A stretch of 64,000 bases of DNA from Amia ocellicauda (taxonomy: Eukaryota > Chordata > Actinopteri > Amiiformes > Amiidae). Both the position numbers and the translations under genes were made by a program. Within the stretch, counting starts at the first letter, position 1, and the number at the start of each line of letters is the position of its first letter. Location of the stretch: NCBI RefSeq assembly GCF_036373705.1, contig NC_089855.1, forward strand, positions 9,172,219 to 9,236,218. The letters are read 5' to 3'. The notes under the pieces are model-generated. The model worked only from the letters and a program-made list of their open reading frames with translations, had not been told where the DNA came from and ran no database searches. Of this stretch, positions 8,830 through 64,000 are shown in pieces.

Positions 8830-10494
8830 GGGCGGTGGGCGAGGTTAGAGACAAACCCAAACACCGCGGGGCCTTTCTGTCTCTGTGTTGTTATTGTGTT
8901 TTGTATGTGTTGTGTTGTGTTAATCTGTGGGATCATCCGGACTGCATTGCTGCTGTATGTTCATCTGTCACCTGTTGTGCCGAAACTACAGGACCTTCTG
9001 GTGAATGGGGGGGTCCGAGTTACACCGTCCCCAGGGACAGCAGTCCCACAGGCTGAGTGTGTGCTGCTCCAGGAAGGCGGATCTGGGAGGAGAAAAGTTT
9101 CTGCTACGTGCAAGAAGTCACAGCCAGGGAGAGAGGAGGAGGAGGAGGGAGGCAGACGAATGAGCCTCGTTGGGGATCAGTTTGCAAGGAACAAATAGAG
9201 TTTAACACCTCGGGCCAAGACTTCAGTAGACGAAGACAGTGTTGTCCCTCTGTGTGCTGAGCCGTGCGTCAGATGATCCACAATTCCCCTTTTATTGCCA
9301 TTGTTACTGACTTCATCTGATCCTAGAGACATGGTTACAGTGATACACCACACTACAGTTTACTCTTGTGTGGGACAAAAGTGTCACAGCCTCATATTTG
9401 TAAAATAAGATTAATTACTCTTTGGCCTATTTCCATTGTATCAATACTACTACTACTACTACTATTAGTACTAATAATTATATTATGGGTCAACAAACAA
9501 ACAAACTAACCCTCAGCGAAAGTAAGAAATGGAGTGGCTGGTGGCTAAATGGTTTCTGCCCAAAGATTGACTGTGCTCCTCTGTTGGTGCCGGGTGGCCA
9601 GTGAAGACCCTGCCCTCACAGTGACAAGTGTTTCCTGATCAACCGGCCGCTCCTCTGACAAGCTGACATCGATACTGAATTACCACTGAGAGAATAACAT
9701 ACAGCCATATTTATAATAATATTTATTGTGATATTGTAATATCAGTAATAATAATAATAATAGCACTTTAACAAAATGTATTATAATAGCGTATGGAAAA
9801 GCATACAATACATTTAGTAATTGTGTCACAGGAATGTTTCATTTATGTCACAAAAGAACAAGAAAGTCCTCCAGGTGTGCAGGTTGTGGCAGCTGTCCAA
9901 CCTCTGGCCCGTGTCACTAGAGGGTCTGCAATGCCGACACAGGCAGGGACGAGGAGAGGGGACAGGAGGAGGGGAGCAGAAGAGAAGAGAGAGCCGGAGG
10001 AGGTAGGCAGAGCTGGCCATGCTGTGCTGTTGAATCTTCCTGGCAGGTCTCTCTCGCTCTCTCCGCTGCGGACCACTGTGACACCGTGGAAGGAAGCGCT
10101 GGAAGACCACCAGAGTGCAGGGTCACAGGCGCAGTGTGACGCAGGAGGGGTAACAGACGGCAGGGGGGGTCCTTCGTGCTCGCTGTGGTGGCTGGCAGCT
10201 CAGTGACCCCAGAGCAGACTCCTCGCTGGAGTGAATATAATGGTGGCACTCCCCACTCCCAATACACGCACACTGCGTCAGGATGTTCTCCACTGCCTCT
10301 TAATAATGAGACAATGCCCCCGACAAAAGCACCTAGTTCTGCTTGCTACTTGGGACAGGAAGGGGTCCTTCTCTTTCCTCAGGCCTGCTGGTAGTTGGAG
10401 GCTGTGTGCAGGTCAGAGGTCAGAGGTCAGCCCCACGTGTGTGTGTGTGAGGGATGGGGGTGGCAGTGGCGGCGGCGGCGGCTCCTCTCTGCGG
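8830..10494. other. Spacer between TMEM45 5' end and LNP1/RING 3' end
   Basis: No coding exon was recognised. AT-rich sequence near 9700-9780 carries a minus-strand AATAAA at 9722-9727, about 770 bases beyond the RING stop codon. That makes it a possible polyadenylation signal for that transcript. The remaining open frames look random. Confidence 0.4.
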
Positions 10495-13400
10495 TCAGGG
10501 CACCTTGACGCGGACGGAGGACCAGTAGAAGGGCTCGGGCATGACCACGAGGACACGGCAGGTTGGGCACGTCTGCTTCTTCCACAGCCACTTCTCGATG
10601 CACTGAAACACAGAGAGGGCCGGCCCGCGGGTCAGTAGCGCTCCCTGCCTCTGCTCCTGCCCTCCTACCCCCGGCTGCTCCTCTGCCCACTGACATTGGG
10701 TCAGTTAGTGCTGAGGGTGGCGATCATTCCCATATGAACACCCTATCATATTTATAATTTATATTTATATTCTTATATTGTCTCCCAAATGTATGAAGAT
10801 GAATAATGTATATGTTGTACATCTGTGAGTATTCTGTATCAGCTTGTGCTCAACAATAGTTTACCATTAACAGCTATCTTTGAGAAACAGGCGCATTGAT
10901 TTAATGTCTGTGGCCTCTTAGTGGCTAATTCACCACAATCAGGATGTAATGAACTACAGGTGTGTGAGTGGCAGCCCCCTCTCCCCCACCTCACCCTGCC
11001 AGGAGCTCTCCTGGGCCCCCCCCCGGCCCCCGTCCTCCGACATCCTGAGCTGTGCGCCGCCAGAGTCATGGCAACACATCCTGACCAGGCTTGGTCGGTT
11101 GTGCTGAGGGCCAATTACTGAAATAATCTCTCTCCCTTCCTGCTTCCTGTGTCCGTGGGCTGTAGGGGAGGCGAGTGAGGGAGTCTGTGGGGAGTCGGGA
11201 GTCGGGAGCCGGTGTGGTGTGGGTCTCGCTGCCCATGGGACTGGCTGTGGGAACAGTGAGCCCCGCCCTGGTAAAGACTGTCCCTCCCTGAGCCCTCAGG
11301 CCCCTGACCTTAACCTGGGTAAAGGTGCCATGGGATTTTTACACTTTCTGCTCACGGTGTCCTGCTGGTTTACCATAGTTTGACAGCATTTGTTGACTGA
11401 GCTTCACCACACTGGTCCAAGAGTATCTCACCATCCCACAGCCCAGTGCAGTGAAGAACAGTGCAGGCTGTTACACTATGGTAGCACCACATTAAAACCA
11501 TGTTAAATTGCACAGCACCTCTTGTGAATGTGCCAAGGAGCCGCTTTGTGACATATTTCAGTGCAGCCCAATGAGTCGAGCCTGAGATTTCTGTTCACAG
11601 AATGAGATATTTATTATCTTCCAGTGTTGACATTATAGTACACTGCAGTCACAGCGTTTCCACACAGACACACTCTGAGTTACAGGCACGGTATCTACAG
11701 TTCACTAATAAGCAAGAAACACATCTAAACACAAGGCCACACTGAGCAGCACAGGGAAAATAACCAGCACGGTGGACAAGGAAGTGTTTGCAGTGACAGC
11801 GTACTTTCAGCTGTGGACATTTGTGTGGCACAATTCGACTTTTATGTCAGACCAAAGCCAAAGCACAGAACTGCCGTTGATGCTGTCAGAATAATATGAT
11901 GCCAGTCGTGTGCTGATGGTTTTCACTCTATAGCCTAATTGTTCAAGTAGAATTATGAGGCGTTTACTCTTTAAACCCATGAAACAAATCACTGCAAAAA
12001 TCTCTGTCCTGCAAACATTTGATGTCTTATGCAGCAAGAAGAGTAACACACAGTGCTTAAATTGTGCTGTTTGTTGTTGTGAGACGGTAGACAGATGTGC
12101 TAAAGGTCAAAATCAATGGAATCCACATATTTGTATTTGTGCTTTGTGTTACTAAGTCAAAAGCTGCCTGATTGATTCCAGTGGGGAGCGTTTCCTCTCA
12201 CCAGGTCTTGGTAACACATGCAAAAGAGTACAATTAAAAAGACAATTTAAGCACTGCTCACACAAAGCTGCTATTTACTTATTAAAGGAAATCTCCACCC
12301 TTGCGTGAATCAACTTCTCCAAACAACTAGACTTGTAGGCCAGATTGTTTTTAAGGATCAAGGCACAATGGGTCATTGCTCATAGTAACCCATCCCAGAT
12401 CTAGGGTTATGTACACAGGAGCAGTGGCCCCTGGTCGTTTTGGCAAGAAAGATGTTTCGGGGCGGTTGTGTCCATCGTGAGAATTCACTTCCTCACACAG
12501 TAGCGTGAACGCATGGCGGATGCATTTCCAGTACTTCACCGTGTGGTGACACAGAAGTGGGTGTGTCCAGTGATGGAAGCACAGGGGCGGTGAGAACTGA
12601 GACGCAATAAGGGCTGGAGGATGAAGACTCAGGTCTGAAGGGGTTCTCTTCCTCACTGGCCATGGAAGAAGAGAGAAAGAGTGTGCCATCTTTGCACTGG
12701 AGCCAAATGCACTGCTGTCCTCGAGCTGGCACTGCGATCCAGACGAGACTCGTGCTGTGGGATGCTGTCCTGCCAGGGGAGGCATAACCACTGCATCCTG
12801 CCTCCGGGAGCCATGGTTGGACTGTCCGATTCTTTTGCTTTAGCGTGGCTCTGCGGTGTTCTTCCCATTCCTCTGTGTCTCTGTGTGTTGGGGTGGCAGG
12901 AGGTGTAGAAGTGCGGGGGTGGCCGGGGGGCTCAGAGGGCGATGGGGGATGGTGGGGTGCGCTCCGGGCTCAGCGCTGGCGGCGGAGGGAGCCCTTCCGG
13001 ACGGGCGGCTGCTGATCCTCCTGTCCAACACAACAGCAGCATCACTGACACTCACAGCTCTCCTCGGCACCGGCCACGCCTCCGTGGCTTTTGTTTCTCT
13101 ACACCTATCTCTCCGTTTTGTTTTAGTTTTTTGTTGTTTGTGTAAAAAAACCCTGCATCAAGTGCAAACAGACATGGGCAGCAACCATGGTGCCAGTGCT
13201 AAACAAGTGTGCCATTCAAGATCTGAATCTCTCCCAGGCATGGCACAGCACATTCTCAGGCCGGTTTGGTACTCACAGGAGTCTTGCAATTACAGGCTGT
13301 GTGTGTGTGTGTCGGGGGGATGGGGGGGCGGATGAAGTGGTGCAAATGATGCTCTGGAAAGTAAATGCCATCCTGTTTTCCTCGTGCATCATCATTAACG

Positions 13401-13728
13401 GGGCTGCGCTTCACATTCTCGCCCCTCGGTGGATTATGCATGTGTGTGCGCATGCACGTGTGTGACTAGAGGAGCTTGTGGAGAGGGCTGGGGAAGCTGG
13501 CAGCAGACTCAGGGGTGTGGGGGAGGAGCAGGCAGAGGCAGCAGGGAGGCACAGCGGGGACACAGGCGGGGCTGCGGGGCGCGGGGCCCGGTGGGGGGCC
13601 CGGGCGGCTCTGTGCGGGTGCTCAGGGGATGCTACCTCCTTGTGGAAGCGGTGGGTGCAGTGCAGCTCCCTGACGCCTCTGCCGCGCAGCTCATCGTGAC
13701 AGATCACACAGACGTCATCCGTGCTGCC
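10495..13728 (-). other. RING-H2 module, two exons, DZIP3/TTC3-like
   Basis: Exon 13728-13636 encodes the first half (CVIC, then C-T-H-R-F-H). Exon 10602-10495 encodes the second half (CIEKWL, then CPTC) and a 20-residue tail ending in VRVKVP and a TGA stop. The acceptors CTTGCAG and GTTTCAG and the donor GAG|GTAGCA are all plausible. Spacing, the flanking CVICH and CPTCR motifs and the tail length resemble the C-terminal RING of DZIP3, and more weakly that of TTC3. All eight zinc ligands are present, as is a tryptophan (W169) in the usual E2-contact region. The module is described separately because it might be a distinct gene, although no start codon or earlier exon of its own was found. 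Confidence 0.85.
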
Positions 13729-16700
13729 CTGCAAGACACGACACCACGGCTCACTGGGACCCTCCCTCACTGCGCCTGACTGTGTGTCTGCCTCTCTCTA
13801 TCTATCTATCTGTATATATATATAATAATATAAGTATAATAGAGAATTACATGCTGAGCTAAGTGGGAAACTAGTTCAATGCAGACCTGTAAACATAGTT
13901 CCTCTAAAGTAACACAGTGGCGGGGGTTGTACAGGAAGAGGAGAGACCAGCAATGAATTCCAAATTATTTTTTCATTCATTTCCATTATTATTATTGTTG
14001 TTGTTGGAGTTTAATTTGTCAGACTCCTTTATCCATCAATTTTTTTTTTTTACAACAGTACAAATAATATATAACAAAGATAAACGATTTACGATTTATG
14101 ATAAGCAAGATCAGATATTGAAATTAAATGTATTCAGTTTTGCTTTTCTTAAAAATTATGACAATGTATGGACAATGCATCCATGTTGCAAGAGAAGATA
14201 AACTGTTTTAAATCATGTTTTGTTCTTATTAATATGCCAATAATTATAAACTGACTATTTCAATCCAGGGGGCAGGAGCGGAACATGTCACTTCTAAAAA
14301 CATGTATATACAGCGACAAGGCCAAAGGCAAACCCGTGGCTCAGCAGCCGCACCCACCAGAGACACGGTGTGGCGGCCGCGGAAGCACAGGCGACGTTCA
14401 AAGGACTCGGCCAGCTCGTGGATGGGCAGGAAGTGCGCGTCGGGCCCGGAGGACTTGCGCCGGTTGTCGTCGGAGGAGGAGGCGCGCCGGGCCTTCTGGT
14501 GCGTCTGCGGCTCTTTGTCCTCCCGGCACTGCGAGTACGCGGACGAGGGCGCCGTGCTGGCAGCATGCAGGCGGCGCAGGTGCATGGCGTTGAGCTGGGC
14601 CTGGGGGTGTGTCGGGGGGGACACGGGAGACAGGGACACAGTGAGTGAGGGAGTTGGGGACACACAGAGATGAAAATTCCTCAAACACGTTTAAAGACAC
14701 ACACATATACATAAGAGTCTGACTGTGGTGCTGAGTGACCTGGGCTCACCTGGGCAGCTCCCTGCTTTCCCCAATTCTTGGCTGTGTACAAATTCCCCCC
14801 TGGCCTATAATCTCTGACGCGTAATTCTGAGACACCTCTGTCCTCTATATACATAAATAGCAAGTGACTCTAAATACACTGGGTGCAGAAGCTCATTACT
14901 ACATGACAAACATTAACGCAGGACAAGACCCTTATGCAAGTTTCCCACAGTGTATCTGCACTGTAATTTGGCACTTTCCCCCCTGGTGTGTCCACTCTTG
15001 TGCTTTAATATTTTCCAGTTTTTTTCCATAATGGTTTACTGTAGCTCTTCATGCTTTACAGTGATGTCGCCTTTCTTTAGAATACTGTGAGTTTCCCCAT
15101 GATCCTCCACAGTGTTTTGTTGCATGTTAAAGCTCCTTTCATTAACTGCTGTTGCTGCTGGGCGCTGGGCTTCACCGAGGGAATAATTCAATTGCAGGAT
15201 TCTTCACGGTATCATTAGCTCTGAAGTTGCCATGAGAATCCGGCACTATCTTTACAAAAGCAGTCTGAGTGTCTCTGTTTACTTACATTTATGAATTATA
15301 ACTGAACTAGTACATTTCACAATGATCTACATAATTGAACATGAAGACTGTATCTCCGGTCCTGGCAGCCATAGGAAACACTGACCCCTGGTGCCAAGGT
15401 CTGGTATTACAGATATTTTAATCAGGGAGGTTGTTGGGTGTTGTGACCCGCTCTGGCATCACACAAACAGACACACTTCTGCGCTGTTGTACCCCTGGTA
15501 GTGTGGACTGCATATTTATACTTTATTGGATGGAGGTGAGTGAGCAGAATCATGGCTGTGTACTCCCATCATGTTATTATAAATTTAAATTAGTGGTCAA
15601 TGAGTCTGTCTGTTTCTGCTTCTCCCTGGGGTTTAGAAAACGTTTCATCCTGACCGAGTGTCTCTATGCGGGGTGTCGGGGTCGCCATCGCAAGAGGGTT
15701 GAGCCCAGAATCCCCTTGCAGCCCTTTCAGGTTGCCGTCCGAAGTGTTGGAGTTAGTAAATTTAGCAGCTGGATTAGTGCTGAGAGCCTGGCTTGCATAA
15801 TGAGCTCATGGTTAATCTGGTTAGCAGGTGCGTGCTGCGGGGCTGTGTGTGGCTCACAGGGGCAGGGAATGAGGCAATCGGCTGTACATACAGCCTGATC
15901 TGTATATTGAAGCCAAAGAGAGCCTGCTGGACAGGGCCATAACACTGTACTCTGGACCGGTCAGGGAACACAGGAGAGGAGGATGTCCCTCACACCACTC
16001 TCACTACCACCATAACATTGGCACACGTGAGCAGTGTAACTCCAGGCAGGCTGCTCTCCACACACACTCCCCCTGGTGGTGTGCTGTGTCCCCAGGCAGG
16101 TGTTCTCCATGCTTCCAGTGAGATCTGATCTCAGTGACAAAGCTGATTACATAACAGATGAGGCACGAGCTTCTACCCCCACCTCACCTGCAGATACCCC
16201 ATACTGCCGCCTGGAGACCCCCGGACTCGCCATCTGGAGTGACACTGCACTGACAGAAATGTTACTGCAACTCCAGAGGTAATTATTGCAGTTAAGACAC
16301 CTGCAAGTGAAATATCCCTCAAATACTGTTCGCAGCCCCTAAAATTATGGGTTGATATGGACTCCTGTATTAGAAGGACTTTATCAGAAAAGTATCTGTG
16401 ATTTTTCTGTTCCATTCTATAATTTTTGTAGCTTTTAAAACATAAAAGTGTTACCTTGTTCTCAGCTGCTGTAAACACCTCCAGAGATAGTCTGGAGTCT
16501 CAGGATATGATTTTTCAACACTTTCCAGAGAGCAGAGAAGAGCACAGGGTTTGTCTTGAGGGAATTATTTTAGGTTTGTTTACAGACTGACTTGTAATCC
16601 TTTTTTAAGCTTCTCAAAATATACAAGATTAGTTTGTTCGGCTTGTGGGTTACATTAAAGGAAATTCAATGCAAGTGTTTCTAATAATAGGCAGACAAAC

Positions 16701-18607
16701 ACACATTGCCCGGCTCCGTATGTATGGCTGCAGCTCGTAACGTCTCAATCAATCAATCCACACATCCATTGTTCTGTGGTATAGTGCCCATCGCAAGGTT
16801 GCCACAGAGCACTTCACACATTAAAACAACAACACAAGACTGAGATCAATACATGTAAAATCAAACCATCAGCCACAGAGGAGAGAAAAACAGGATTAAT
16901 AGACATTTATAGGAGAAAATATCTCTGGGGGACCATGGCTAAAGGCCCAGGCAAGCTGGTTGCCTCCCCTCCAGCAAATGTAACATAAACAGGCAGCGTG
17001 AAGATCGTGAAGCTCTTGTATAGCTTATATATCTTGAAACAATGGTCCTATATCCATCTGTGTCAAGCTATGTGGGGCCTGCAGGGACACACGCACCCGG
17101 GGACACAAATGGAAATTGGGCTTCAAGGCATTCAAGACAGAAAACAGGAGACACTTCTTCACACAGAGAGGCGTCACAATCTGAACAAACTCCCCAGTGA
17201 TGTGGCTGAAGAGACAATTTGGGAACATTCAAAAACAGACTGGATAGGATCCTTGGATCACTTAGTTATTAATGGACACCAAACGAGCACAATGGGGAGA
17301 ATGGGCTCCTCTTGTATGGACACTTTATATTCTTATGTATTCACCACACCACCTTCTCTCAAAACAGCCCAAACCAGCCCAAACCTAGCCTCCTCCCTGC
17401 TGTGCCACGCACCGGTACCTCCCTGCTCTGTCCACACAATGCCCCTCTTGGCTGGCACCGGGGCTGCATTTGACGTAAAGTGTACCACTGACACTTCATG
17501 ATCTGCCGAGCCGAGCACCCTGCTGTCTTCCTTTCTTCCTTTCTCTCTTTTTCCGTTTCTGCTTCTTTTCTGCTTGCTGCAGCTTCTCAGTCTCCAGATA
17601 ATGACCGGAGAGGGTGGTTTCACAGCTGAAGGGCCGAACTCTGTCTCTGCTGTGATCTTACACGGACTCTAAACACGAGGCCGGCTGCCTGGATCTAGGA
17701 GAGTTCCGAGGACATGCGTGTGAGAAAACACTCTCGACTGGAGGACTGTCACACCGAACACGCTCTGAATGTGTGCCCTGCCACAGCGTTTATGTGTCGC
17801 TTGTGCCTCTCTCACTGAAGACGCGTCTCACTGGTGTTGGTCAACCAAAGCTACTTTGCTTCATATCAGTTCTGCTCTGTCTGCTCTGTATTTCTCATGA
17901 ATTTGTTTATTTGTAACAAAGTAAAATCGAACCCTCATTTATTATTATTATTATTGTAGTTGTTTTTGTTGTTATTTATTTGTTAGCAGATGTCCTTACC
18001 TAGTTGGCTCACCATAAACAGCCAGAGAATTAATTTGCCCAATTCACAGGAGCTCAATTATCAAATTAACCTCTGCCCGCCCTACAGGCGGATCAGGGCA
18101 GGCTGGGAGATACATGGCTCTGCACGCAGCTGACAGACAAATATAATTGATCCATCCAAACCATCAGGAACAGATAATTTGATGTGATATAATATTGATC
18201 TGTAGAGTCCCCATCGCCCGCAACAGAGCAGATGAAAAAACCCCAATGAGCCCGGCCCGGTCACAGCTCTCTGCTCCTCACAACTCACAGAGACGGACAT
18301 TAGTACAGACAGATACACAGAGGGGTCCAGGGAGGCACTGGTCTAGAGACAGCATTATAGAAACATTAGTAAAGAGACATTAGTGTGGAAGCATCACTAG
18401 AGACATTAGCCTAGAGACCGGCATGCGGGTACTGGGCAGAGGGACTCTTACCGGGCAGGGCAGGGAGGCTCTGCGGTCGGAGATGGGCCGGGCAGGGCGT
18501 CTCCAGCTGGCCCTGCGTTCGCGTGCCGGCTCCTCGCTCACGCTGTGGCCCCAGAAGCTGCTCATCCACTTGGCAAAGTTAACATCGTCGTCCTCTTCGT
18601 GGTCCAT
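10495..18607 (-). CDS. lnp1: LNP1-like protein with C-terminal RING-H2 domain
   Basis: Four minus-strand exons join in phase 0 throughout: 18607-18452, 14600-14358, 13728-13636 and 10602-10495 (stop at 10495-10497), giving 199 aa. Residues 1-52 begin MDHEEDDDVNFAKWMSSFWG, matching the LNP1 (leukemia NUP98 fusion partner 1) N-terminus. Residues 118-125 read SFERRLCF, the second LNP1 signature. Residues 140-179 form a RING-H2 with ligands C140, C143, C157, H159, H162, C165, C176 and C179. As I remember human LNP1 (178 aa), it has no RING, so the fusion is inferred from shared strand, consecutive order, matching phase and the lack of any start codon of its own in the RING part. LNP1 has no established function; a RING-H2 would suggest E3 ubiquitin ligase activity. 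The start was chosen by alignment with human LNP1. An upstream non-coding exon, probably near TOMM70 at 30.1 kb, is expected. The alternative is two overlapping transcription units. Confidence 0.75.
17077..17320 (+). mobile_element. CR1-like LINE, 5'-truncated 3' end
   Basis: About 240 bases are almost identical to 27690-27925, the 3' end of the larger LINE in this window. Both contain the stretch from GGGACACACGCACCCGGGGA through to the shared ATGGGCTCCTC. The copy starts abruptly at CAGGGACACACG, as expected of 5' truncation. High similarity between the two copies suggests recent or common insertion. Confidence 0.85.
17939..18065 (-). repeat. L2/SINE-type tail, reverse orientation
   Basis: A (TTA)n run is followed by TTGTTAGCAGATGTCCTTACC. 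This is the reverse complement of the stem-loop tail common to fish L2 LINEs and the SINEs that use them. It is short and degenerate; no internal promoter boxes were identified. Confidence 0.5.
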
Positions 18608-19065
18608 GCAGATTGTGGGAAACAGCTTTGTGGTGGACAAGGCGCGCTCCCGCAGGAAGAGAGACGTCCGGGACGCCAGACACGACCACGCAGAGAGACA
18701 CAAGAGACACTCAGACTGCTGCGCCTATGTTAACCGCGCTGAGATTTTTCTGAACTGGTCTTTTCTGTTTTTTGTAACCTTTATGTGCTGCACTAGGCTG
18801 TTGTATTGCAACTTTCTACACTGCAACTTTTCTGTGCTGCTCTGTGCTGTGCTCCTTGCTGCACTGTAGCTCCACTGTGTTCAGACTGACGCTGTGGCAG
18901 TTGCTTCCCCCTGTGGTTTGCTCTGACGGTTGGTGTGGTTTGTAGTTCTAAGCTGAACCAAAAATACTCTCCACAGCTTTTGGTGAAGTCTTTATATAAG
19001 CCAATCCTCCGTAATCAGTTTAGAGTCAGGGAGGGTAGGAGGGAGGAGAGGAGATGGAGATGGTG

Positions 19066-19067
<2 letters not shown>

Positions 19068-19120
<53 letters not shown>
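19068..19120. repeat. (TG)n microsatellite
   Basis: About 53 bases of uninterrupted TG repeat, ending in TATGTGG. Confidence 0.97.
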
Positions 19121-19125
<5 letters not shown>

Positions 19126-19869
19126 GTGGCGTGTGGGTTGGGGGCCGTTGTTGGTAGGGTGTGGGGGTCCGGCGTGCTTTTAATCTTTCCATTACAGAGC
19201 TTTGCCATGTCAGCCAGGGCCTGGAGGGGAGTCAGCGCCCAGCACACTGTCCCATACTTTCCACTGGCTGAGCACATCAAATGTGTCAATAACTATGGAG
19301 CGATGTCTACTTTCTCTCTGTCCCCTTCTCTCTCTCTCTCCCGAAGGCCTGGAGCCTCCCTCTGTCCTCTGCCTGTACGAAGAGGGTCGCTGTGAGCTGG
19401 GGAGGGGAAGAGAGGACAGCAGGGGATGGGCGTGTTGACCGGGCCAAGTAGGGTCTGCCCGTGGAGGCCCTCGCTGACATGCCGAACACTTTTTATTTGC
19501 CTTCTAAAACACACTTAATACAATACGATTATATTGCCTCTTTTCCACTCCACGGCAGAATTCAGCGACAATCCGGTGATCCTTCAGGAAATCAATGTCA
19601 GCTGAGAGATTTCCACACGAGAAGACAGAATCAATTGCTGTGCCTTTGATATCGTGTTCCTCTTTTATTGCCTTTCTCTTTCATGAACATGTGGCTGGTG
19701 TGCCAACACTTTGCAGGCGGTCCGAGAGCCGAGCGACCCTGCTGAGCAACCAGGTGCACACACATATCGTTTCTGTTTGCTGGTGCTTATCTTCTCCCCT
19801 GCAGACTAATTACTAAGTAAATACAGAATAATATGACTATGATTGACTTTAATAAGGGTAATTACAGGA

Positions 19870-23100: not shown

Positions 23101-24017
23101 AAAGAGTGTTGAAATGTCAACTTGGTGTAAATGAATCACAATACACTATCAATTTCACATTTCTGTGAGCTGTACTATGCAGTGCTATACTGTACTGTAC
23201 TATGTTGTACTGTGCTGTGGCGAGCATAGCGCTCACTGGCACAGCCACCCCCAGGCACAGATCGACCTGTCCAGCCCTGGCCTGCCTCTGCCCCCTAATA
23301 AAAATGTGATTGGGTATAGATTGAAACAAGGCAATCAGTACACAAGGCAGCAGTGCTGATGACTCTCCCCCCACACACACTCGCACACACATAGAAATAA
23401 AAATAAAAATGTCTGGGATTTGCCTTTGCTTGTCCTTTTTACAATTACAACTACAATTATCTGTGTGCGTATGAGTCTAATAGTGGCGTGCATGTTTAAA
23501 ACAGGCCTGTGTGTTGAGAAGAACGGTGAGCCATTCGCGTTCAGAAGAGGCCTGTAACATCTGTGCAGGTAAGACAAAACAGTTCACAGGGATCCTTCCA
23601 CGCAGACTCTAACCAATTTAGCCAATGGAAGTGTTCATAGAGATCATTCAAGATGATTGGATAACTGGTCAGAGTTTATACAGAGTCTGTGCTGAATTGT
23701 TGTAAAGTATTGTAGAGCTTATGTGGGTGCAAAACAAAGATGTTTTATTTTATTAACTCAGCACTAAACTCGCAGCTTCAGGGCTGAGTACACAAACTAC
23801 CTCTCACTACACTCCTCCCCACCGTACCCACTTCACTCCATTAACTCCTTATGGTGTGGTGGCATGTTACAGTATAAATAAACTGTGCAGTAAAATATGG
23901 ACACACTAAAGGAATATTTATTTTATGGCTATTTGATGAACACATCAGGAGGAAGCACAGGAGGAAAGGACTCACTAACAAAAAACTAGGGATGAGGGGG
24001 GCAGGGAGTTCTGAATA

Positions 24018-24616
24018 ATGGGAGATGTTCCACTAAAGAAAGGAAACCAAGGGAAACTGCTAGTAGGAAACAAGATGTTAGACCTAGAAGCCACAGTGCT
24101 GGCGGGTGCCTATGATGTTGTAGGTGTGACAGAAACATGGCTTACAGAAAATGATGGGGATGAATACAAGTTGAAAGGATACACACAGTTTAGGAGAGAC
24201 AGGCAAAATCGAAGAGGTAGTGGGGTAGCATTATATGTGAAAAATGACACTGAGGCAGAAGAACTCAAATTAGATCCCAGTAACGAAACAGAATCTTTGT
24301 GGGTCAAACTTTTGAACAAGAGATCTGGAGGATTAGTGGTAGGAGTGTGTTACAGACCACCCAGCTCAGATATTCAGAAAGATGTTGCATTGTACAATGT
24401 AATCAGGACTGCATGTAGCAATGATGTGGCTGTTATAATGGGGGATTTCAATTTCCCAAACATAGACTGGGAAAGCCCAGTCGGAACTACAGAAGCAGAA
24501 ATAGAAATGGCTGAGATGGTAAATGACTGCTTTCTAACTCAGTTTGTCAGAGAGAGCGCATGCATTGACTTGATTTTTTCAAATGACCAAGATAGAGTCA
24601 GAGAGACACAAGTTAG
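24018..24616 (+). pseudogene. CR1-like ORF2, apurinic endonuclease part
   Basis: The frame encodes an APE-type endonuclease with VTETWL (catalytic Glu), RRDRQNRRGSGVALYVK, VCYRPPSS and GDFNFPNIDW (catalytic Asp/Asn). The last part of the domain is cut off by the hAT-type insertion. The Asp-His pair expected at the end (NCDHNK) reappears beyond it at about 24905. The N-terminal part of ORF2 and any ORF1 are missing or unrecognisable. Confidence 0.85.
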
Positions 24617-24617
24617 A

Positions 24618-24882
24618 GCAGCAGTTCTCAAACTGGGGTCCGTGAGAGAGTCGTAGGGGGTGCCCATCACCACCCCACCCCCCCTGCTCTAACAAGTTTT
24701 TAACGTCAACACCCCCCACCCCCGATCTCACATTTTTTTTTTTTTTTACCGTAAACGCCCCCCCCCCGCTCTTGCAAGTTTCTACCGTCAGCACCCCCCA
24801 TCATACTTTGGTAGGTGGGGGTCCTCAGCCAAAATCTGGGCGGCAAAGAGATCCCTGGGTCAAAAAAGTTTGAGAACCACTG
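24618..24882. mobile_element. Non-autonomous hAT-type element inside the CR1 LINE
   Basis: The left end contains CAGTTCTCAAACT and the right end AGTTTGAGAACCACTG, an inverted pair matching the widespread CAGTGGTTCTCAAAC hAT terminus. The flanking octamers AAGTTAGA and AATTTAGA differ at one base, consistent with an old 8-bp target duplication. The interior is C-rich and non-coding, with a poly-T run at about 24731. Confidence 0.75.
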
Positions 24883-24943
24883 AATTTAGAGAACTAATGG
24901 CAAACTGTGATCACAATAAGGTTAGCTTTGAGGCATACTTTCA

Positions 24944-25760
24944 GTACCAACTACTCGACTCAGCTGCTCGTCCAGTCCCTGGTCCTCTCCCGCCTGGACT
25001 ACTGTAACTCCCTCCTGGCCGGCCTGCCTGCATCCACTACCCGCCGCTCCAGCTCATCCAGAACTCTGTGGTTCGTCTGGTGTCTCTCTGCCACGATTCA
25101 CACACGCTACTCCACTGCTCCGCTCCCTCCACTGGCTCCCGATACCGGCACACATTCAGTTCAAGACATTGACCCTCACCTACCGCTGTCTCGACCACAC
25201 TGCACCAAGATACCTTCAGACCCTCGTCTCTCCATACATCCCCTCCAGACCACTGCGCTCCTCCAGCGCCAGAAGACTAAGTCTACCTCCTCTCCACTCT
25301 CCTTCCTCCAGAGCCGCTCCTTCTCATACCTGAACGACCTGCCCACCGAAGTCAAAACAGCAGAGTCCTTGACCTCCTTCTGGCGCTTACTCAAGACACA
25401 TCTGTTCAGACTCTACTTGTAATTTAGTCCTTTACTCTCCTGTAAGATAGCACTTAACAACGTTTTATTATACTTCTTGCCTTGCGTTACTAGTACTTGA
25501 ATTATTTTGATTTCCCCTATGCTCCCTTTCCCTTGGCCTTTGATTGTGACCTAACATCTTGTCTGCACTCTGCTTTTACAATCCAGGATGTAAGACCCAT
25601 ATATTGTATACACTAGTGTAAATTGGAACTTGTAAAATGTATTACGTTTTGAATTTCACTGTATTATGTAAATTTGTAATGTTTTATGACTTGTACTGAA
25701 CTGTATTTTTTAACTCATATTTTGTAAGTCGCCCTGGATAAGGGCGTCTGCCAAGAATTA

Positions 25761-25800
<40 letters not shown>
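24944..25800 (+). mobile_element. L2-like LINE 3' fragment inside the CR1 LINE
   Basis: The translation QLLVQSLVLSRLDYCNSLLA and, near the end, FSYLNDLPTEVKTAESLTSF are the C-terminal part of L2-type reverse transcriptase ORFs. The tail GTAAGTCGCCCTGGATAAGGG followed by (AAT)n is the standard fish L2 3' end. ATACTTTCA occurs at 24935-24943 and again at 25798-25806, a likely 9-bp target duplication. The CR1 sequence resumes after it. Confidence 0.85.
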
Positions 25801-25803
<3 letters not shown>

Positions 25804-26226
25804 TCAAAAAACAAGGACTAAGTCTAAAACAATTGTCTACAATTTTAGAAAAGCAAACCTTGAAGGTATGAGGCGGCACTTAGAAGAGTTAGGCTGGAGC
25901 ACACTGGATCAGATTCAGTTGAAAATGGATGGTTATATTTTAAGAATATACTAATTGAGGCTCAGGAGCAATTTGTACCAAAACTTAGCAGATTGAGGAC
26001 CAAAAAACATTGGCCAAAATGGTTTAATAGAGGTATGCAAAAAAATATCAAGAGAAAGAAAATGTTGTATAGCGCATACAAAAGGGATAGAGACTAAACA
26101 AAATACAAAGAATATGTTGAACTGCAAACAGATCTTAAGAAAGGGATCAGGAAAGCAAAAAGGGAAAAAACGAATGCAAAGAGCTGTTTTCAATACTACA
26201 AAAGCAAGAGGTCAATAAAGGAGGAA

Positions 26227-27930
26227 GTGAAACAGATAAAGGGCAAAAATGGAAGTATCTTGGAAAACGAACGAGATGTGGCAAATGTTCTGAATGAGTA
26301 TTTCACAGAGGTTTTTACAAAAGAAAAAACAGATAACATGCCACAGGTTGACAATCAGTCCAGTCAAACCCTAAGAGAGATCAGGATAAATGAGGAGGAG
26401 GTACTAAAGGGACTAGCAGAATTAAAAACAAACAGATCACCTGGGCCAGATGGGATATTCCCAACAGTACTTAAAGAAATGAGGGAAATTATTTATAGGC
26501 CGCTAACTCAAATATTCCGAAAGACACTTAGAACAGGGGATGTGCCAACTGATTGGAAGACAGCAAATGTCACACCAATCCACAAGAAAGGGGACAAAAC
26601 TGAGCCAGGAAATTACAGACCAATCAGTCTCACCTGCATCACCTGTAAAATGTTGGAACAAATGATTACACAGAAAATAGAGGAGCATCTTAATGAAAAG
26701 CATATTCTTGGAGATAGTCAACATGGGTTTAGACGAGGCAGATCATGTCTTACTAATTTATAAGAATTTTTTGAACATGGAACTGCAGCTGTAGATCAGG
26801 TGAAAGCATATGATATGATATACTTAGATTGTCAAAAAGCTTTTGATAAGGTTCCACACCAAAGACTGATCCTCAGATTGGAAGCTGTAGGCATTCAGGG
26901 CAATGTAAGTAGATGGATTATGAATTGGTTGATGTATAGGAAGCAGAGGGTGTCAATTAGAGGAGTCACTTCTAACTGGAGTGAGGTTGTTAGTGGACTT
27001 CCACAGGGATCAGTACTAGGGCCTTTGCTCTTTCTAATCTATATTAATGATCTGGACTCTGGGATAGTTAGCAAACTTGTCAAATTTGCAGATGATACTA
27101 AAATAGGTGGCTCAGCAGATACAATCTCGGCAGCAGTTTATTCAAAGGGACTTGGATAATATTCAGTTGTGGGCCGACACCTGGCAGATGAAATTCAATG
27201 AGAACAAGTGCAAGGTATTACATACAGGTAACCAAAATGTCCACTATAATTACACTATGGGAGGAATAGAACTAGATGAAGTAACGCATGAGAAAGACCT
27301 AGGAGTCTATGTGGACTCCTCACTCTCTCCATCCAAACAATGTGGGGAAGCAATAAAAAAGGCAAACACAATGTTAGGGTATATTGTCAAAAGTGCAGAA
27401 TTTATAACGAGAGCAGTGATGTTCAGACTGTACAATACACTAGTTAGAGCTCATCTGGATACTGTGTGCAGTTCTGGGCTCCACACTTCAAGAAAGATAT
27501 CGCTGCTCTAGAGGCAGTTCAGAGGAGAGCAACCAGACTTATTCCAGGTCTGAAGGGAATGTCCTACTGAGAGACTGAGGACCTGAACCTTTTCACCCTG
27601 GAACAGAGGAGACTACGGGGGGACATGATCCAAGTCTTCAAAATCATGAAAGGCATCGACCACATCAAACCAGAGGAGCTTTTCCAGATCAGCAGGGACA
27701 CACGCACCCGGGGACACAAATGGAAATTGGGCTTCAAGGCATTCAAGACAGAAAACAGGAGACACTTCTTCACACAGAGAGGCGTCACAATCTGAACAAA
27801 CTCCCGAGCGATGTGGCTGAAGAGACAATTTGGGAACATTCAAAAACAGACTGGATAGGATCCTTGGATCACTTAGTTATTAATGGACACCAAACGAGCA
27901 CGATGGGTCTAATGGGCTCCTCTCATTTGT
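26227..27930 (+). pseudogene. CR1-like ORF2, reverse transcriptase part
   Basis: The translation carries the reverse-transcriptase series RSPGPDGIFPTVLKEM, NYRPISLTCITCKMLEQ, SQHGFRRGRSCLTNL, IYLDCQKAFDKVPH, GLPQGSVLGPLLFLIYINDL and the catalytic FADDTKIGG. It is broken by a stop at 26761-26763 and a frame change near 27110, with another shift after about 27500. The C-terminal FTQRGVTIWNKLPSDVAEE-type segment lies near 27770-27830. This is the RT domain of the same LINE, displaced by the insertions upstream. Confidence 0.88.
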
Positions 27931-36200: not shown

Positions 36201-39200
36201 GGAGGAGAACTACGACAAGATCATCAGCGAGTGCAGCAAGGAAGTGGAGTCCCGGGGGAAGCACCTGGCTGAGGCGCTGCTGCTGCGCGCCACCTTCTAC
36301 CTGCTGATTGGCAACGCAGCGGCCGCCCGGCCTGACCTCGACCAGGTCATCAACATGGAGACGGCCAACGTAAAGGTAGGTGTGGCCCCTCTCTGTGTCC
36401 GTCTCTCTCGGCGCTCTCTCTCTCTCTCTGTGTCCGTCTCTCTCGGCGCTCTCTCTCTCTCTCTGTGTCCGTCTCTCTCGGCGCTCTCTCTCTCTCTGTG
36501 TCCGTCTCTCTCGGCGCTCTCTCTCTCTCTGTGTCCGTCTCTCTCGGCGCTCTCTCTCTCTCTGTGTCCGTCTCTCTCGGCGCTCTCTCTCTCTCTGTCC
36601 GTCTCTCTCGGCGCTCTCTCTCTCTCTGTGTCCGTCTCTCTCGGCGCTCTCTCAATTTCAATTCAATTCAATGTAGGCTTTATTGGCATGGCATTTGTAT
36701 ATAAGTATTGCCAAAGCATGTGATATAATTGATACATATAAACATAAATATAGATTTATAGAAAATAAAGTTAAACAAAAACAATTTAACAAAAATAAAT
36801 GCATCAATTAAACATTAAAATAATTAAATTAATAAATAAAAAGATAATCATTGAAACTAGTATGATTAGGTACATTTCAATACATAGAAGTTTATGAAGG
36901 AAAAAAAACTAGACATCGATAAAACGGTCCTTATTCCCATTAAAGTCCCCCCTCCCCCGCCTTAGAAAGCAGCTCTAACACTGCCTCCCCCTCTGATATG
37001 CTGATCCTATATCAGACTACAGGCTGTGTGGCTGCCCCCCCTCCCTGTAGCAGTAGGCCCGTGCGGTTGCTGGCCGTCCATACACTGTCCACATTGTCCC
37101 TCCGGCTGTGGCAGGCAGACATGCATTTGGCTGCTATGCTATATTCCGAAATTTGGGGGTGTATTCTTTTTGTATGTCTGTTTATTTTGAGCAGGACAGC
37201 AGGAAGTGTGTCTCTGTTTCGATCTCTCCCTGCTCACAGTGGCTGCACAGCCACTCCTCTCTGGCGACCCAGGACCGTCTGTGTCGGCCCGTTTCAATCG
37301 CCAGTGCTCACCAAGTCTGTACCTTGTTAATGTCTGCCTTTCTTTTTATTTTTTTATTTTTAGGTAAATGGAAAATGTAATATTTCTGTTTAGGGCCCAG
37401 TAACATTCAAGTTTATCTATTAATTTTAATTAGTTTTCTCAAATTTTGTTGTATTTCTCCTTCAGGTTAAGGTCGATTGTTTTGGTTGTTGAGGAGCTCT
37501 GGCCCTGGGGCTCTCCCCCAGCCCGTGCAGCTCGGGGTTGCAAGTCTCAGTAGTGCTTTGTGGTGTTAGGACTGGGGGTCTGCCTGCTTTAGGTGGGACC
37601 AGAACTTCACTGCCCTCTTCTGGATGTGGATCAGCAGGCTGTGTTGGGGGAGTTTCTGTGGACCTGCAGGATGTGCTTACAGAATTCAAGTTGCAGTTTT
37701 TCTATTGGGCTTTTGTCCCAGACTGTATAGGTCTCCCGTAGAGTAGGATTGACTGGATAATTGCTTGGAAAATTTTCAACCAGATTTGTATGGGTATTTT
37801 TGTTTGGCCGAATTGTGTTTTTATGGCGTAGAAAGCTGGAAGTGCTTTTTCTTTTAGTGTTGGTGGCCTGATTGAAACTCCCTGAGGCACTGAGGGTCAG
37901 GCCCAGGTAGCTGTAGCTGGTGCTGTGCTGTAGCACCATGCTGCCCAGCATGAGGCACTCTCCGTGTCACTGAGATCTGTCTTTCTTCTGGAAAACTATA
38001 ACTCTGGTCTTGTCCAGATTGACTGTCAGGGCCCATTTCTGACAGTACTGCTCCAGCAGGGCCAGGTTCGGCTGCAGCCCCTGCTCTGTGGGCAACAGCA
38101 GCGCCAGGTCATCTGCGTAGAGCAGGAACTTGATCTCTGTGTCGTGGAGAGTGAGGCCGGGGCCGTCAGACTGCTCCAACACTGTGGCCAATATGTAGAT
38201 ATTGATCAGGGTTGGACTCTGCCCTGCCTCACTCCCCGCCCCTGAGCGAAGAACTCTGATCTTTTATCACCAGTCTTCACTGCGCACTTATTTTCAGAGT
38301 ACATTGATTTTATGATGTCATAGACTTTACCCCCTACACCACTTTGTAGGAGCCTGTAAAGTAGTCCTTTGTGCCAGATTGAATCAAATGCTTTCTTAAA
38401 GTCAATAAAGCAAGCAAATATTTTACCTCTTATTTTTTTGGTGGACATGCGTCTATTAGGGTGTGTAGGGTGTAAATATGGTCGGATATGCTGTGTTTTG
38501 GAAGGAAGCCAATCTGACTCGGGACATTGTGCTCAGTAAGGAAGGCCAGTATCCGGGCGTTGATGATGCTACAGAACACCTTCCCCAGGTTGCTGCTCAC
38601 ACAGACGTAATAATATTATATAGAGGTTAAAGTGTCTGAGCAGCACCTCCTGTGAGCATCTCTCACTCTTTCTCTCTCTGGGTCTGTGTCTCTCTCAATT
38701 CAATTCAAATTCAAATTAAAAGGTGATTTATTGGCATGACCGATCATAGTATAGCCAGAGCAGATACAGATGTACTTTCAAACAAGACAAAGATAACATG
38801 ACAAGATGCATTGGAACAAATACCATATATATTTAAAATAAAATAAAGTGAAATATAATCCATATTTGGTATATGTATCAAAAACTTTGTCATGACAATC
38901 ATGATAACAAAAAAGGCAATGAACCTGACCGTTTTGATTTTGTTTTACAATGGAGTCCTGCAGGCCGGTGTCACACACTGTCCCTCAGGCTATGGCAGGT
39001 GGACACATATTGGTCTGCGATGGCCGCAGTGCGTTGCTTGTCTCTCAGCAGGATGGGGAGTTTGCAGCCATCGGGGAGCTGACTGAATTCAGGGATTTTA
39101 TTTTTAATTTGTGGCCAGTAGGTCTCTCTGATTTGTGTGTATTTAGGGCAGGACAGACTGTCTGTCTCTGTGTCCTGCTGTGGAAGGACAGACAGTCCCA

Positions 39201-46315: not shown

Positions 46316-64000
<17,685 letters not shown>

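Follow-up and report, generated by a model that had tools for sequence, protein, structure and literature searches.

A minus-strand LNP1 gene of Amia ocellicauda that probably continues into a RING-H2 module of TTC3 type

In a 64-kb stretch of Amia ocellicauda DNA (the window, whose numbering is used wherever no contig is named), the exons of LNP1 (leukemia NUP98 fusion partner 1) appear to run on in phase into a RING-H2 module whose two exons very probably share their descent with the final two of TTC3. The product would be a single protein of 199 amino acids, with an LNP1 region (residues 1-133) followed by a C-terminal RING-H2 domain. The original prediction placed four phase-0 exons in one such frame, closed by a stop codon, and a script re-reading of the DNA returned the same coordinates and bore this out: all four exon lengths are multiples of three, the phase is 0 throughout, and GT-AG ends are found at all three introns. 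The exons are as follows.

18607-18452, minus strand: LNP1 exon 1 (coding part), 156 nucleotides, beginning MDHEEDDDVNFAKWMSSFWGHS..., with the start codon at 18607
14600-14358, minus strand: LNP1 exon 2, 243 nucleotides, ending ...SFERRLCFRGRHTVSL, phase 0
13728-13636, minus strand: RING exon A (exon 3), 93 nucleotides, GSTDDVCVIC...FHKE, carrying zinc ligands 1-5
10602-10495, minus strand: RING exon B (exon 4), 108 nucleotides including TGA, CIEKWLWKKQTCPTCR...VP and then the stop, carrying zinc ligands 6-8

Pfam searches identified both parts of the joined protein. The LNP1 family (PF15419) matches residues 5-135 with 136.2 bits (E 2.1e-39; curated cut-off 27 bits), and exon 1 alone matches it with an E value of 2.8e-21. 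The zf-RING_2 family (PF13639) matches residues 139-180 with 46.1 bits (E 6.1e-12; cut-off 27.3), and all eight zinc ligands (C140, C143, C157, H159, H162, C165, C176 and C179) are present in C3H2C3 order. With both domains above their cut-offs and the ligand set whole, the earlier claim that a complete C3H2C3 RING follows the LNP1 exons was upheld. By the landmark rule that we assume for such domains, I142, W168 and P177 are the positions that contact the ubiquitin-conjugating enzyme (E2), and R180 is the linchpin; all four residues can be read in the sequence. The 199-amino-acid protein also matched 58 sequences of solved structures, the first being the synoviolin RING (6a3z, E 1.8e-12). The LNP1 half is rich in charged residues and serine, and carries the motif FAKWMSSFWGHS. 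Its profile match covers positions 1-133 of 167 and ends two residues beyond the point where exons 2 and 3 join, the C-terminal tail of the profile (positions 134-167) being unmatched in the Pfam search of the RING form. Since the match stops so close to the junction, catalogued LNP1 proteins appear to have another C terminus; the 199-amino-acid protein is LNP1 over the first 133 profile positions and differs from there on.

We then compared the RING with others of the same genome, in which a 66-amino-acid RING query finds 57 places. At four of these, namely LNP1, TTC3, SYVN1 and C19:23722744, the edges of the match are compatible with a break close to query residue 31. Eight stretches besides LNP1 were read by eye for intron position, and among TTC3, SYVN1 and C19:23722744 the same position and phase were seen only in TTC3. 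There the RING (C3:41175200-41175700) is split at the same place as that of LNP1: its exon A (C3:41175279-41175371) is 93 nucleotides long, is in phase 0 at both ends and has six codons ahead of the first cysteine, and its exon B begins at the sixth ligand, so that the LNP1 RING exons share length, phases and both boundaries with it. The gene on C3 is identified as TTC3 by Pfam matches above cut-off in three of five upstream open reading frames (PF24525 twice, PF24905 once), a fourth matching weakly and the fifth not at all. Pairwise scores of the LNP1 RING were 166 for TTC3 (26/53 identical) and 144 for SYVN1 (23/50), with the spliced RINGs of both entered by hand, whereas none of 48 further loci scored above 123; this set contains duplicates, copies of repeats and one half of TTC3, and split RINGs in it were scored piecewise. 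Because two intron positions and phases agree and the score is the best found, the two-exon RING modules of LNP1 and TTC3 very probably share common descent. Of 443 candidate zf-RING_2 stretches, 150 were scored, and all of these cross the intron position; the list favours unsplit RINGs, leaves both LNP1 and TTC3 outside and is no fair intron control.

A recent copying of the RING from TTC3 was considered and rejected, given the low nucleotide identity (48/93 in exon A, 43/66 in exon B) and the lack of any substantial stretch shared in blastn. Window positions 9500-19500 gave one weak match to the 8-kb TTC3 region, of 72 nucleotides (E 0.006), spanning RING exon B and about 13 nucleotides of the intron before it; the other four matches are of 14-27 nucleotides (E 0.23-0.82). 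The shared module thus seems to be old. Its direction of travel may have been from TTC3 to LNP1, the reverse, or from another gene into both.

The likeness to TTC3 extends to a C-x2-C-H start, to TCPTCRV followed by PE-x-F, and to the C-terminal place of the RING, and we take the LNP1 RING to be of the TTC3/DZIP3 type, the DZIP3 part of this likeness being presumed. The two differ in that only the TTC3 gene has PF19179 (TTC3_DZIP3_dom), and a Pfam search of the 199-amino-acid protein found no TTC3 helical domain. In the genome profile search, PF19179 exceeded its cut-off at three of four listed places, all within C3:41164947-41165767, with the fourth, on C18, below it; none of the listed places is the LNP1 locus, and this domain, used as a probe, brought up no separate DZIP3 beside the C3 gene in the genome. 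SYVN1 (HRD1) holds the second-best RING of the genome and the best solved-structure match (6a3z), but its RING intron lies one base earlier and in phase 2, and in the Pfam search the LNP1 protein showed no further domain of HRD1. The SYVN1 name itself is given to the gene on C18 from the near-identity of its RING with the synoviolin structure alignment.

The same survey of RINGs revealed a very large array of a RING exon, RCQVCLMDFDED[DE]ELRTLPCLHDYHVQCVDRWLE, at C11:8685851-12498444 and also on C44 and C69. By hand count it makes up 87 of the 150 scored zf-RING_2 stretches (range 2-37, 62-amino-acid frame), with a spacing that is often about 40 kb. On C11 all copies but one (12302523) divide by strand, those below 10.33 Mb being on the minus strand and those above 10.34 Mb on the plus strand. 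Twelve copies were compared, and three translated; over 2.3-3.1 kb, one of the twelve shares 98.8-99.7% identity with each of the other 11. The arrangement resembles an ampliconic, inverted array of genes.

Returning to the LNP1 locus, an assembly misjoin behind the arrangement is unlikely, because the window is free of any N and lies in a contig of 50.7 Mb. Splice sites were scored with hand-entered tables of generic vertebrate frequencies and ranked among the 489 GTs and 586 AGs of an 8.2-kb stretch. The donor of exon 3 (GAG|gtagca) is weak, with a score of -0.66 and rank 76 of 489. The remaining five sites rank high, with donors at 7 and 10 (rank 10 being exon 2, score 3.84) and acceptors at 11, 15 and 31. 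The reading frame of exon 3 opens at 13797 and holds no ATG, in agreement with the earlier statement that the RING exons lack a start of their own. Phase, missing start codon, splice sites (one donor being weak) and adjoining exons together make a single LNP1-RING gene a well-supported reading of the sequence.

Several observations weigh against this reading. One is the weak exon-3 donor already described; another is that the joined form is predicted from the DNA of one genome. A third is that, of 89 phase-0 donors reachable from an ATG in intron 1, three score at or above the 3.84 of exon 2 (4.97-7.31), two of them at 7.2-7.3 and thus above either LNP1 donor, while in the 11.7 kb upstream one of 152 reachable donors scores at least 3.84, for a candidate exon of two codons. 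The RING exons could therefore have another first exon. Finally, intron 3 may offer another last exon, at 13020, with an AATAAA further on:

12970..13020, minus strand: possible alternative last exon, unproven, EDQQPPVRKGSLRRQR and then a stop, giving a 16-amino-acid tail; in phase 0 after either exon 2 or exon 3
11610..11615, minus strand: AATAAA inside intron 3, 1.4 kb beyond, which could serve the 13020 last exon

The intron-1 candidates and the weak exon-3 donor would fit two genes, or two starts, in which the RING exons would have a first exon distinct from that of LNP1 (for example, one in intron 1 with its donor near 16187 or 14749) and LNP1 would end elsewhere. However, ATG-started candidate first exons of this kind are expected by chance, at the counts of three in 89 and one in 152 given above. 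Moreover, LNP1 exons 1 and 2 directly precede the RING exons and end in a good phase-0 donor; exon 3 has no in-frame ATG ahead of it, and intron 2 provides no good route, since its eight paths from an ATG to a phase-0 donor (six distinct donors) all use poor donors, the best scoring -1.0 compared with 3.8 for exon 2. We consider such an arrangement improbable.

The 13020 exon bears on a different possibility, that one promoter gives rise to alternative 3' ends, namely an LNP1-only form ending there and a RING form. Splice choice would then set LNP1 as a ligase or as a mere binding protein, a situation compatible with the joined gene. The phase-0 acceptor, the short tail with its stop and the AATAAA further on are all consistent with it, as is the fact that the LNP1 profile continues past the junction with non-RING sequence. 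The acceptor ranks 26 of 586, although 15 of the acceptors listed in introns 2 and 3 score higher, two of which are those of the RING exons, and pairs of an acceptor with a short open reading frame are common in these same introns. On the LNP1 profile the tail scores 137.9 bits, compared with 134.4-137.8 for eight shuffled tails; its gain over exons 1 and 2 alone is 3.5 bits (0.0-3.4 in the shuffles), which makes it the best of nine by 0.1 bit, and with it the match reaches profile position 140, where shuffled tails reach 134-142. This gain is indistinguishable from chance, and we regard the use of alternative 3' ends as rather unlikely.

It could also be argued that the RING module is a relic, decaying or usually skipped, as the weak exon-3 donor and a catalogued LNP1 profile devoid of a RING would allow. 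Against this, the eight ligands, the isoleucine, tryptophan and proline E2 contacts, the linchpin arginine, the frame and the splice dinucleotides are all intact, making a relic very improbable.

Having weighed these points, we think it highly probable that the joined LNP1-RING form exists as a splice product, and likely that the joined gene with its intact RING is a main product. For the original prediction of one LNP1-RING ubiquitin ligase gene, this means that phase, splice sites and adjoining exons speak in its favour, while the exon-3 donor, the intron-1 starts and the 13020 last exon hold it back from certainty. As for the ligase activity also proposed there, the intact RING landmarks argue for it with reasonable, if lesser, confidence. 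The protein would act as a small single-subunit RING ubiquitin ligase (E3), using I142, W168 and P177 of its RING to engage an E2 loaded with ubiquitin, with R180 as the linchpin. Its LNP1 region is probably flexible and provided with short binding motifs, and may bind a substrate or a cell structure. The intron at the junction being in phase 0, gain, loss or skipping of the RING module would leave the frame whole.

Further elements of the transcript may be marked by two motifs. The TATATA is a weak candidate, as one of 13 TATA[AT]A matches within 20500-10602.

18993..18998, minus strand: TATATA about 390 nucleotides before the ATG, candidate promoter element
9722..9727, minus strand: AATAAA that lies about 770 nucleotides past the stop codon of the RING and may act as poly(A) signal for the LNP1-RING transcript

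A search of the whole 988-Mb genome (385 contigs) matched the LNP1 exons at one locus only:

C6:9190619-9190813: LNP1 match, exon 1, E 1.2e-19
C6:9186573-9186818: LNP1 match, exon 2, E 1.1e-10

On its minus strand the neighbourhood includes exons of DUF716, for which two of three open reading frames exceed the cut-off; on the plus strand there are an open reading frame bearing TPRs (TPR_1 above cut-off) and a rhodanese match that falls short of its cut-off (20.5 vs 22.2 bits); one TBC1D23-like open reading frame beside LNP1 has no Pfam match. From protein sequences and family names, we take the DUF716, TPR and rhodanese neighbours to be TMEM45, TOMM70 and TBC1D23, which, together with LNP1, presumably correspond to the human 3q12 neighbourhood. 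Because these neighbours would fit the human order, we take the gene, in the one genome examined, to be the LNP1 ortholog. Queries with LNP1 exons 1 and 2 against viral contigs (two pattern stretches) and genome contigs (86 stretches) gave no confirmed match, in viral and prokaryotic collections that are uninformative on vertebrates.

The window also contains mobile elements. Non-LTR (long terminal repeat) retrotransposon fragments lie at 24015-27511 (plus strand), between LNP1 and the TOMM70-like gene, with an endonuclease match above cut-off and reverse-transcriptase-like frames recognised by eye; the TOMM70-like gene itself holds more such frames, likewise recognised by eye, at 37631-38532 (minus strand). 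A Tc1-like transposase occurs twice, at 54554-55594 and 48060-49100 (both plus strand): the former is an open frame of 346 amino acids with Pfam matches to HTH_Tnp_Tc3_2 and DDE_3, and the latter is split into two frames and was named by sequence likeness.

A 2024 review of NUP98 fusions states, where it treats LNP1, that no functional domain has been identified in this protein (PMC11423334). In the titles and abstract openings of the open-access papers surveyed we found neither an LNP1 with a RING nor a link between LNP1 and TTC3 or DZIP3; automated database entries of the LNP1-RING architecture may well exist. What is new here, as far as the DNA can tell, is the likeness of the LNP1 RING, both in sequence and in exon structure, to the RING at the C terminus of TTC3. 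Relative to the LNP1 described so far, the RING would be either an addition or a part lost in the described lineages. Either history offered by the original prediction, an ancestral RING lost elsewhere or a lineage-specific fusion, would fit the one genome examined. Tentatively, and with less than even confidence, we suggest that the ancestral LNP1 was a small ubiquitin ligase whose catalytic RING module was kin to that of TTC3/DZIP3, and that mammals lost or replaced this module at the phase-0 junction, keeping only the substrate-binding half that is the NUP98 partner in the leukaemia fusion. If LNP1 is indeed joined to a RING, its biochemistry would become open to test, beginning with a first role for the protein; it would also suggest that mammalian LNP1 represents the half without catalytic function of an E3, either former or alternative, and that its partners could be sought.

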